Translations under genes and position numbers: made by a program
In this document: one piece after another, positions 26,346-28,729 of the stretch
Numbering within the stretch: the stretch's first letter is position 1
Layout of the letters: each line of letters begins with the position of its first letter
Notes under the pieces: model-generated
Told to the model about the DNA's origin: nothing
The model's database searches: none
Seen by the model: only the letters and a program-made list of their open reading frames with translations
Assembly (NCBI GenBank): GCA_018242295.1
Contig: JAFECE010000011.1
Location: forward strand, 248,001-312,000
DNA length: 64,000 nt
From: Pseudomonadota bacterium
GTDB taxonomy: Bacteria; Pseudomonadota; Alphaproteobacteria; Rhizobiales; Hyphomicrobiaceae
Direction of reading: 5' to 3'

Positions 26346-26370
26346 GGAACCACGTTCATCGCGCGCCGTT
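26346..26370 (+). promoter_or_regulatory. EcfG (general stress sigma factor) promoter, perfect consensus
   Basis: GGAAC (26346-26350), 16 bases, CGTT (26367-26370), exactly the EcfG consensus. The expected transcript start near 26377 is followed by GGAGG (26388-26392) and the ATG at 26401, a compact, well-formed promoter-gene arrangement. Confidence 0.75.
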
Positions 26371-26400: not shown

Positions 26401-26628
26401 ATGGCGTTGGATCAACAGCACGATTTCATCGATGATGCCGATGAAGCTCTGGCGCGGCAGGAAGCGCGGCGCGTCACTCTGGTGGGCTTAGGCGTCGCGT
26501 TCGTTCTCGGCATCGTGCTCGTTTCGGTTCTGATGTACGGGCGTATCCTCACCGACGACGCAGGGATTGCTTTGACATCGCCTGCAGCGCTTGTCGCATC
26601 CGACGCTCCGAAGCCGAACACGCCTTAA
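26401..26628 (+). CDS. Small single-pass membrane protein, probable general-stress gene
   Basis: 75 aa. An acidic N-terminus (DDADEALARQEARR) precedes one transmembrane helix (about 28-47, VTLVGLGVAFVLGIVLVSVL), then a periplasmic tail rich in Ala, Pro and Asp. GGAGG lies eight bases before the ATG. A perfect EcfG promoter is directly upstream, and a second small membrane gene follows 15 bases downstream, so the two form an operon. No family recognised. Small membrane proteins of this type are common in alphaproteobacterial stress regulons, but none can be named here. Confidence 0.75.
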   Translation: MALDQQHDFIDDADEALARQEARRVTLVGLGVAFVLGIVLVSVLMYGRILTDDAGIALTSPAALVASDAPKPNTP

Positions 26629-26643: not shown

Positions 26644-26853
26644 ATGGCATTCTGGAGTGAAGGCCGCAGCTTCGATGCAGCCGTGAGGCGAACAGACAAT
26701 ACCCTCAACGTGCTGGTGGCCGTGCTGCTCATCGCGTTCGCGCTGTGCGTGACCGCCTATTATTATGGGCAGATGAATCCGAGAGTGACGCCTCCGACAG
26801 CTAGCGCTCCTGCGGCTCCTGCTCAACCTTTGGCGACGCAACCCAATCCGTAG
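26644..26853 (+). CDS. Small single-pass membrane protein, second gene of the stress operon
   Basis: 69 aa. The N-terminus is soluble (FWSEGRSFDAAVRRTDNTLN), followed by one transmembrane helix (about 24-43, VLVAVLLIAFALCVTAYYYG) and a Pro/Ala/Gln-rich tail (PTASAPAAPAQPLATQPNP). GAGGAGAG precedes the ATG. It is 15 bases from the upstream gene and shares its layout (charged N-terminus, one helix, proline-rich outer tail), suggesting the two proteins act together in the membrane. Unknown family. Confidence 0.75.
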   Translation: MAFWSEGRSFDAAVRRTDNTLNVLVAVLLIAFALCVTAYYYGQMNPRVTPPTASAPAAPAQPLATQPNP

Positions 26854-27049
26854 CAGGTGCTCTGTAGTCTGGGGAAAGTTCCTGCCGCGAGGTTATATTT
26901 CCTGACTCTGGGAACAGTCACCGATTGCGGCTGATCCGTGAACGGATGTTCAGGTTTTCATGCATTTAAATACATTCTCGTAAGCGCACAAATTGCACGA
27001 ATTTTTCCGTTAAGGATGGCTCTTGCTTCTAAAGCAATGGAGACATCCA

Positions 27050-27349
27050 ATGAGAAAAGTTGCGCTTGGATTTATTGCACTCAGCAGCATTCTGTTCACG
27101 ACCGCGGCATCGGCAGAGCCGATGTTCCCAGCAGCAGCTGCTGCCGCTGCATCCCAAACGATGGTGCAGAAGGCCTACTACTATCATCGCTGGCATCGCG
27201 GCTGGGGTCCACGTTGGCGCGGACCGGGCTGGGGTTACGGCTATGGCTATGGATATCGTGGCTGCTATGGCGTGCGCCATCTCTGTGCGGAACGCTGGGG
27301 TTGGGGCGGTCCTGGGTTCCGCCGCTGCATGTGGCGTCACGGCTGCTGA
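27050..27349 (+). CDS. Secreted four-cysteine mini-protein A (Gly/Tyr/Trp-rich)
   Basis: 99 aa. Signal peptide MRKVALGFIA...TTAASA with cleavage after about residue 22. The mature part has an Ala-rich spacer, the motif QTMVQ, a region rich in Trp, Arg, Gly and Tyr (residues 45-70) and a C-terminal cysteine module with Cys at 72, 79, 93 and 99. Protein B at 27660 has the same module with identical spacing (C-x6-C-x13-C-x5-C) and shared W, GGP, F, RC and GC positions, so the two are paralogues. The ribosome binding site GGAGA lies eight bases before the ATG, and a terminator follows directly. Probably two disulphides form in the periplasm (inference). Function unknown. Confidence 0.8.
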   Translation: MRKVALGFIALSSILFTTAASAEPMFPAAAAAAASQTMVQKAYYYHRWHRGWGPRWRGPGWGYGYGYGYRGCYGVRHLCAERWGWGGPGFRRCMWRHGC

Positions 27350-27374
27350 CTTGAATTCGACTTCATTTTTCGCG

Positions 27375-27407
27375 GCCGGGAGGTATCAGCCTCCCGGCTT
27401 CTTTTTT
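27375..27407 (+). terminator. Intrinsic terminator of mini-protein A gene
   Basis: A 9-bp perfect stem (27375-27383 with 27390-27398) is followed by TTCTTTTTT. Confidence 0.85.
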
Positions 27408-27659
27408 GCGCGGTGCACGTCTTCTGCAAACGCACCGGAGCCGAATGTCCGTTGACGTAACTGAGCCTCTCCGAAGGGCTTGATGACGCTTATTGCACTT
27501 CGTTGACGCGTGCGGTGCGTCATGAATCGCGGCTCAAAGGAGTTCGCTTATGAACCCTATGTTCAGCGCGAAGTTCGGAAATTCGTTTTGGTGTCGAAAC
27601 GGCAGTAGAGTCGTGATGCTTCCAAGCAATCTTCGTGCTTTCAAGCAAGGAGACGCACA

Positions 27660-27929
27660 ATGAAAAAAATAGTGTTCGGGTTGATTGCATGTGGCGTCGG
27701 CGTGGTTGCGACTTCCGCGGTTGCGGAGCCGAGTTTTACAAAGGCGCCGCCTGTTCAATCGATGATTCAACGCACGCAGCATTTTGGCTGGCCGGACCGC
27801 CCAGGCGGTCCTGGTGGCCCGCCCTATCGCGGTGTCAACAGTTGCGATGCCGTGCAGGAGATGTGTGCCAATCAATGGCAAGTCGGCGGCCCCTACTTTA
27901 ATAGGTGCTTGGCGCTGCGTGGCTGCTGA
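27660..27929 (+). CDS. Secreted four-cysteine mini-protein B
   Basis: 89 aa. Signal peptide MKKIVFGLIA...SAVA with cleavage after about residue 22. The mature part has QSMIQ (compare QTMVQ in A), a Gly/Pro-rich segment (PDRPGGPGGPPYRG) and the cysteine module with Cys at 62, 69, 83 and 89, ending FNRCLALRGC. Thirteen of the 28 module residues equal those of protein A. It has its own ribosome binding site (CAAGGAGA) and terminator, so A and B are separately transcribed tandem paralogues. No named family recognised. The 310-base region between them (27350-27659) holds only A's terminator and B's upstream region. Confidence 0.8.
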   Translation: MKKIVFGLIACGVGVVATSAVAEPSFTKAPPVQSMIQRTQHFGWPDRPGGPGGPPYRGVNSCDAVQEMCANQWQVGGPYFNRCLALRGC

Positions 27930-27947
27930 ACGAGTGGCAAGTTTTGA

Positions 27948-27985
27948 GGCCGGGAGGATATTGTCTTCCCGGCCTTTTCTTTTTT
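27948..27985 (+). terminator. Intrinsic terminator of mini-protein B gene
   Basis: An 8-bp stem (GGCCGGGA 27948-27955, TCCCGGCC 27967-27974) is followed by TTTTCTTTTTT. Its sequence resembles the terminator of mini-protein A, consistent with tandem duplication of the whole unit. Confidence 0.85.
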
Positions 27986-28282: not shown

Positions 28283-28729
28283 TTATTGCTTCTGCTGCGT
28301 CAGCTCATTCCACTTGTCGCCGAGCTGTTTCTTGAGATCGTCGATCTTCTTCGAGGCTTCATCCGTCTTCGCCGTGAATGCGGTGCGAGCAGCCGTGTAG
28401 TCAGCATCCGGAATTTCAAACTCCGTCATGAACGGGCATCCGCCATGGCTGAGATTGGGAGCCGCGTAGCGGACGCGCGTCGTCGCCGGTTCGGCGCCCG
28501 GGCCGACCTTCATGATGACGGCGTCCTTTTCCAGATGGCACTTATCGCCCTTCGCGAGTTTCTTCATATCGACGGTGACGAACTTGCCGCCTTCGTTGAG
28601 CAACGTGACGTCCTGCGCGCTCGGCAGGAATGCGAGTTCGACGCTCTTGTCCGCGTCAGCCGCTTGCGCCGAGAACGGTACTGCCGCAAAGGCGGCGGCG
28701 ATCAACGTATTCTTCAAATTCAATTTCAT
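28283..28729 (-). CDS. Exported hypothetical protein with helical C-terminus
   Basis: 148 aa. Signal peptide MKLNLKNTLIAAAFAAVPFSAQA with cleavage near residue 23. The central part has two Cys (CHLEKDAV and HGGCPFMTEFEI) that could form a disulphide, within a beta-rich segment (about 28-100). The last 45 residues (TAARTAFTAKTDEASKKIDDLKKQLGDKWNELTQ) form a charged amphipathic helix. GAGGA precedes the ATG. An inverted repeat at 28790-28806 lies about 60 bases upstream and may be an operator. No family recognised; periplasmic location is inferred. Confidence 0.75.
   Translation of the reverse strand: MKLNLKNTLIAAAFAAVPFSAQAADADKSVELAFLPSAQDVTLLNEGGKFVTVDMKKLAKGDKCHLEKDAVIMKVGPGAEPATTRVRYAAPNLSHGGCPFMTEFEIPDADYTAARTAFTAKTDEASKKIDDLKKQLGDKWNELTQQKQ

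Follow-up and report, generated by a model that had tools for sequence, protein, structure and literature searches.

Tandem genes for putative exported proteins that end in a predicted four-cysteine helical hairpin, and their apparent family in the order Hyphomicrobiales

Bufferins are exported, Cys-rich peptides that are modified by MNIO enzymes, with the MNIO gene in the same gene cluster, and the CHCH proteins of the mitochondrial intermembrane space are characterised by CX9C spacing and disulfide pairing. Two papers describe the CHCH, or twin CX9C, proteins as containing a helix-helix motif held by two disulfides (PMC12114033), and the plant alpha-hairpinins as two antiparallel helices and a turn with Cys1-Cys4 and Cys2-Cys3 bonds (PMC7191063). 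Here we analyse a stretch of 64,000 nucleotides (the window) in which two neighbouring genes, A and B, encode small, putatively exported proteins with a C-terminal four-Cys module that can be compared with each of these systems. The plant alpha-hairpinins (EcAMP1, Luffin P1, vicilin-derived peptides) have the same plan of two helices and four Cys that is predicted here for the module; however, their spacing is C-x3-C...C-x3-C as opposed to C-x6-C...C-x5-C, so that their motif is absent, and the bacterial module, unlike the plant peptides, is the end of a putatively exported protein. Given the different spacing, and with no significant Pfam or PDB sequence match, membership in the alpha-hairpinin family was rejected. 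CHCH proteins also resemble the predicted module in pairing two helices with two disulfides, at a spacing of CX9C rather than CX6C/CX5C; there is no twin C-x9-C in the hairpin proteins, and a search of PDB sequences with the module profile gave nothing significant, its best and only CHCH match having an E value of 1.2, so that this membership was rejected as well. Bufferins are, like the hairpin family, small exported Cys proteins, and a bufferin-type cluster is encoded in the same genome, but the hairpin locus of the window, unlike those of bufferins, lacks an MNIO gene.

The original prediction, made from the window alone, described A and B as two adjacent genes for signal-peptide proteins of 99 and 89 residues, and both open reading frames are present (Table 1). 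Each protein starts with Met-Arg or Met-Lys, from which a hydrophobic segment leads to AEP, resembling a cleavage site (assigned by eye), and each gene has its own ribosome binding site (GGAG), as had been proposed. The last 28 residues do align without a gap and share 13 identities that include the four Cys, W, GGP, F, RC and the terminal GC; upstream of them a QxMxQ motif is common to both proteins (QTMVQ in A, QSMIQ in B), and the centres have diverged in composition in the way first described. Chance resemblance of the two modules is ruled out, since shuffling one module 1,000,000 times never gave more than 10 identities and a tblastn search of the genome with protein B recovers gene A at 43% identity (E 4.9e-11). 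The modules differ in charge, with five Lys/Arg and one Asp/Glu in A and two of each kind in B. A stem follows the stop codon of both genes, which agrees in part with the similar strong terminators that had been reported; terminator-like sites in the region number two against a shuffle mean of 2.4, so the count is not above chance and the terminator reading of both stems comes from their placement and length. We infer that the A and B proteins are expressed, exported and disulfide-bonded.

Table 1. Features of the A/B locus in window coordinates
Feature	Position	Strand	Description
EcfG-like motif GGAAC-N16-CGTT	26346..26370	+	before small-gene pair
Small gene 1	26404..26628	+	one hydrophobic stretch (by eye); first of conserved pair upstream of hairpin genes
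Small gene 2	26644..26853	+	one hydrophobic stretch (by eye); second of conserved pair
Inverted repeat TGAAC-N4-GTTCA	26939..26952	+	about 110 nt before start of gene A
Gene A	27050..27349	+	99 aa; Sec-type signal peptide (by eye), Trp/Tyr/Gly/Arg-rich linker, Arg-rich C-terminal module, predicted hairpin CYGVRHLCAERWGWGGPGFRRCMWRHGC
Gene A module	27263..27346	+	28 residues, C-x6-C-x13-C-x5-C
Terminator-like stem 3' of gene A	27374..27399	+	11 pairs
Inverted repeat TGAAC-N5-GTTCA	27551..27565	+	about 110 nt before start of gene B
Gene B	27660..27929	+	89 aa; signal peptide (by eye), Pro/Gly-rich linker FGWPDRPGGPGGP, near-neutral module CDAVQEMCANQWQVGGPYFNRCLALRGC
Gene B module	27843..27926	+	28 residues
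Terminator-like stem 3' of gene B	27946..27976	+	14 pairs
148-aa gene	28283-28729	-	probable exported protein; 83-90% identical in five syntenic Hyphomicrobium loci

A and B apparently belong to an unnamed family of small exported proteins that is restricted, as far as sequence comparison indicates, to the order Hyphomicrobiales. A search of the order with a module profile, as the original prediction had suggested, returned abundant homologues, so the family is not limited to two genes; it is common in Hyphomicrobium and scattered across its order, where orders and families follow the taxonomy of the genome collection used. Among relatives that carry a name, Hyphomicrobium sp. isolate AWTP1-10, H. 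facile DSM 1565 and two more Hyphomicrobium assemblies come closest; H. facile has an array of three hairpin genes. With protein B as single query, all 22 genomes of the genus give at least one match at E<=1, often a weak one, and a 49-row module profile matches 20 of the 22 at E<=0.01, with none in G010 and G011. The same profile reaches E<=0.01 in 63 of 103 genomes of the bacterial family (best E<=1e-4 in 57/103) and in 56 of 397 genomes of the order, 42 of which, from 12 families, have matches at E<=1e-4; an earlier version of the profile had matched 38 of 297 genomes of the order. Sampling 385 genomes of the class and 398 of the phylum gave, among the best-scoring candidates per genome, nothing credible outside the order at E<=0.001, where, besides the genome itself, one further member of the order (G062) and two partial matches appeared; in several of these whole-genome searches (order, class and phylum samples) at most the best 19-26 candidates per genome were scored, which makes absences soft. 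Both matches outside the order were judged false, that in G996 lying in another frame of a 550-aa ORF and that in G628 being a 59-aa frame that covers the first part of the module only.

Profile searches of Pfam, NCBIfam and PHROGs assigned neither gene to a family already described, and to that extent the family remains as nameless as it had first appeared. The proteins of the window matched no Pfam or NCBIfam family; 26 full-length members gave best values of 0.0023 in Pfam (YjbE) and 0.025 in NCBIfam, neither significant, and none at 0.01 among the PHROGs phage families, whilst the best values were 0.035 for 49 modules against Pfam and 0.077 (NCBIfam) for six distant members. A plasmid search with the gene A protein gave no match, and the titles and abstract openings of open-licence PMC papers, among the matches listed, include no paper on the hairpin family. 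Six copies are present in the genome itself, namely A, B, C1:33034, C4:149675, C6:102515 and C7:163689 (a seventh match has E 0.33), and 13 tandem arrays of two or three genes each were counted by eye from match positions in 12 genomes. After the two hairpin genes of G016, a short frame ending in GEFWFNQCMWLRGC (L239, 2785-2889) looks like what is left of a third copy that has decayed.

An N-terminal hydrophobic stretch is present in 159 of 161 member proteins, and the linker between signal and module is variable and often of low complexity. Amongst these 159 proteins, which had been filtered to carry at least Cys1-Cys3, net charge is positive in 141, and in 146 every Cys of the mature part belongs to the module; the 13 exceptions comprise one unrecognised second module, four proteins of a late-Cys subtype, one signal-peptide Cys, six proteins with two extra Cys and one with three. 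All four Cys are aligned in 164 of 177 module hits, a count that imposed no Cys requirement but used a profile of four-Cys modules, with loci first picked by Cys pattern, so that full Cys conservation partly reflects this selection; the 177 remain after identical ORFs were dropped, with overlapping loci still included. The other 13 hits are made up of four of the late-Cys subtype (last Cys shifted by +1), two of a long-loop subtype, four weak fragments and three modules without Cys1 and Cys4, two of these in one G250 protein and one in G1122, all of which retain Cys2 and Cys3; loss of the inner pair alone occurs in none of the 177. Of the 164 four-Cys hits, 106 have the fourth Cys as the final residue of the protein and 40 have one residue after it, and seven modules end 40-60 residues before the stop and are followed by a second module, so that two-module proteins exist. 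The spacing C-x6-C-x13-C-x5-C, claimed as exact, holds for A and B but varies across the family (by eye), the x13 loop being x12 or x14 in some members and about x25 in one subtype, with C3-x6-C4 in place of C3-x5-C4 in another. Consensus positions over 158 distinct modules are W18 (132), G19 (144), F/Y25 (148), M/L/V29 (153) and G33 (132), with His at position 32 in 97.

Structure prediction, which had been proposed as a check, gives a helix-turn-helix for the module: AlphaFold2, run on 34 residues with 49 aligned sequences, predicts helices at 7-18 and 23-32 with a mean pLDDT of 82 and a pTM of 0.49. For full-length A the mean pLDDT is 60; confidence is low in the linker, whereas the module again shows two helices that are well predicted. 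A helical first segment would place Cys1, residue 10, Cys2 and W18 on one face. Foldseek comparison of the module model with the PDB returned nine matches, all with E of 5.4 or more and none significant; two are of alpha-hairpinin type (Luffin P1, E 9.2, and a vicilin leader, E 7.0), values that do not establish homology. The joint loss of Cys1 and Cys4 with Cys2 and Cys3 kept (three modules in two proteins) argues for an outer Cys1-Cys4 bond, and a pairing of Cys1-Cys4 outside and Cys2-Cys3 inside is, in our judgement, likely; homologues of DsbA are encoded in the genome. The suggestion of a duplicated, disulfide-stabilised secreted family is thereby supported at the level of sequence, by the abundance of homologues, the Cys counts, the paired loss of Cys1 and Cys4 and the recurring tandem arrays.

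Selection was assessed as pairwise dN/dS among Hyphomicrobium orthologues, for A, for B, for a further second-position copy, D (L009, L010, L014), and for the third copy of three-gene arrays. Over whole genes the values are 0.05-0.20 for A (15 pairs of six sequences), 0.15-0.25 for B (three pairs), 0.21-0.28 for D (three pairs) and 0.05 for the third copy (one pair); A and B are real genes under purifying selection. Within the gene, however, the copies behave differently. The module of A has a median dN/dS of 0.04 (range 0 to 0.30, 15 pairs) versus 0.13 elsewhere, the module not being lower in four of the more closely related pairs, and the third copy is like A, with 0 in the module versus 0.06 elsewhere (one pair). 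The order is reversed in B (0.25-0.48 in the module versus 0.08-0.20 elsewhere, three pairs) and in D (0.41-0.66 versus 0.10-0.18, three pairs). Faster change of the module is therefore confined to second copies and is not a property of every downstream copy. As no value exceeds 1, we read it as change, relaxed or diversifying, within a Cys frame that stays fixed, positive selection not being proven. The contrast, inside a single array, of a frozen copy with a fast-changing one provides a usable handle on function.

Six genomes keep the gene order around A: the two small genes come first, then A with one or two additional copies behind it, a 37-aa gene and finally the reverse 148-aa gene, whose product has no significant Pfam or NCBIfam match. 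G001 and G002 have another hairpin gene followed by a homologue of the reverse gene, and four other genomes have the late-Cys hairpin subtype downstream of the small-gene pair. Small gene 2 has a match at E<=0.01 in 14 of the 22 genus genomes, 11 of them strong (E<=1.2e-15), and a hairpin gene lies directly downstream in ten of these 11, G013 being the exception; in G001, G002 and G018 the matches are weak and the best of them adjoin no hairpin gene. GGAAC-N16/17-CGTT resembles the promoter consensus of EcfG, the general stress sigma factor. Such a motif precedes the pair in nine of the ten loci with a hairpin gene (it was not found in G019) and also in G013, where the hairpin gene is missing; the window contains four, compared with 1.06 expected. 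A general stress promoter directly before gene A was considered and rejected, its own leader having no EcfG-like motif and the motif sitting before the upstream pair, and gene A could be transcribed separately from the small genes.

Other candidate signals lie in the leaders of the hairpin genes. TGAAC-N4/5-GTTCA repeats occur twice in the window as against 0.06 expected, and amongst 14 leaders the left arm is unchanged in all and the right arm in 13. An exact search of the genome gave six rows, of which two report a single site read on either strand, versus three for a reversed control; the sites are the two of the window, two inside ORFs (532 and 615 aa) and one intergenic before a TetR-like gene (by eye), and since no regulon emerged the repeat was dropped as a genome-wide operator. 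A further inverted repeat, TTGCTT-CTA-AAGCAA (27023-27037), stands directly before the Shine-Dalgarno sequence of gene A, and some B copies are preceded by similar forms. The leaders have no Rfam match at gathering scores, and folding z values of -1.99 (A) and -0.43 (B) were not convincing for a structured RNA. Before B, an ORF of 37 codons with an AAAGGAG site (27550-27663) has a stop that overlaps the start codon of gene B (ATGA); it is open in the window but closed early in some relatives (by eye), and a leader ORF was accordingly not retained.

Neighbouring genes were examined in 45 clusters, and a further comparison, of mechanically called neighbouring ORFs at 135 labelled loci, found ten clusters common to different bacterial families. 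Four of these are one block, pheT-pheS-rplT and its opposite strand (labelled by eye), and the rest look generic or carry no gene label; the recurring neighbours are housekeeping or generic genes and give no functional hint. The pheT-pheS-rplT block lies within a few kb of the C1 copy of the genome itself, of a copy in G005 and of the array in G1122, which belongs to another family (L132, L142 and L149), a neighbourhood that suggests an old chromosomal position for one copy.

Taken together, these results make disulfide-stapled hairpin proteins of the cell envelope the best reading overall, one that we hold with moderate confidence. The A and B proteins would be exported by the Sec route and, after removal of the signal, a flexible low-complexity linker would carry the C-terminal helical hairpin, its two helices probably stapled by Cys1-Cys4 and Cys2-Cys3 through the periplasmic DsbA system. 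Such a hairpin may act as a protease-resistant binding knob, either in the periplasm or on the cell surface; the cationic, Trp/Arg-rich and nearly invariant A type would most likely bind an anionic component of the envelope, and in the second copies a scaffold kept with a changed surface suggests different or changing partners. A polyanion-binding role shared by both would leave B unexplained, its module being near-neutral. Upstream of the locus lie genes for two small proteins that are probably anchored in the membrane, preceded by an EcfG-like promoter, and this pair with its promoter makes an envelope role linked to general stress the most likely setting. The envelope reading is bounded by a pTM of 0.49, an unstructured linker and the occurrence of small gene 2 without a hairpin gene, and a binding role in the envelope is a tentative proposal. 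More doubtful still is the broader possibility of a new bacterial scaffold, a twin CX6C/CX5C hairpin frame whose tandem copies might vary their surface for envelope or extracellular partners whilst one frozen copy keeps a core stress function.

Several other explanations would draw on the same features. The proteins might be mainly structural, as cell wall or capsule matrix proteins held by the linker with the hairpin only a C-terminal cap against proteases: linkers vary freely and the module stays C-terminal (the fourth Cys is last or last but one in 146/164), yet two-module proteins exist, and the modules of second copies outpace the remainder of their genes in rate of change, neither of which a mere cap would need, so that we consider this unlikely, if less so than the other alternatives. 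As secreted antimicrobial peptides of inter-strain competition, cationic hairpins would be released to attack cells and second copies would diversify against changing targets, in keeping with a predicted helix-loop-helix like that of antimicrobial plant alpha-hairpinins, with the prevalence of positive charge (141/159) and with the faster evolution of second-copy modules; against this, the family is matched in 20 of 22 genus genomes, the A module is almost invariant, and no recurring transporter, immunity or processing gene was seen adjoining when neighbours were compared mutually rather than annotated, and we regard such a role as improbable.

A metal or redox carrier, in which the four Cys with linker His and the RHGC end would bind or pass on copper or other metals like some mitochondrial CHCH proteins, seems a little more improbable again. 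The non-significant CHCH match noted above and the His-rich linkers of several members speak for it, but Cys1 and Cys4 are lost jointly while Cys2 and Cys3 stay, His32 occurs only in 97 of the 158 distinct modules, and an Nramp-like gene (by eye) adjoins the C6 copy but was seen beside no other. We give very little credence to a RiPP precursor modified by an MNIO enzyme in the manner of bufferins: MNIO (PF05114) genes do occur twice in the genome, and one of them is only about 2.8 kb away from C6, but that gene sits in a minus-strand cluster with its own Cys-rich, bufferin-like precursor, and in this genome the other is more than 110 kb from the C4 copy, with none on the contig of the window. 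The cluster near C6 (L133, 8006-11333, minus strand), which comprises an MNIO partner, CcdA-like and thioredoxin-like genes and a Cys-rich precursor besides the MNIO gene, is presumably bufferin-like.

The finding first made on A and B is thus correct, larger than two genes and modestly important. On the envelope reading, a predicted four-Cys helical hairpin that occurs in up to several copies per genome and is unmatched in Pfam, NCBIfam and PHROGs would represent unexplored envelope biology of Hyphomicrobiales, and the family gives experiments a defined motif, with six copies in one organism, and a testable structural prediction. Some further regularities were seen outside the hairpin. A motif [LM]-[VIT]-[QE]-x-[AV]-x-[YWH] recurs after the signal peptide at variable distance from the hairpin (for example in L024, L091, L172 and L182); a survey counted it in 42 of 169, a few of them clearly wrong, for a pattern chosen after looking. 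In L211, L212, L213 and L216 a KTHGWHC segment and two further Cys precede the hairpin, which suggests a second Cys module combined with it. The long-loop subtype (L214, L217, L215) has C-x6-C, about 25 residues and C-x5-C (by eye), only the second half being aligned in two of the three, and in L214 and L217 the long-loop hairpin is preceded by an AHGFHC-like segment.
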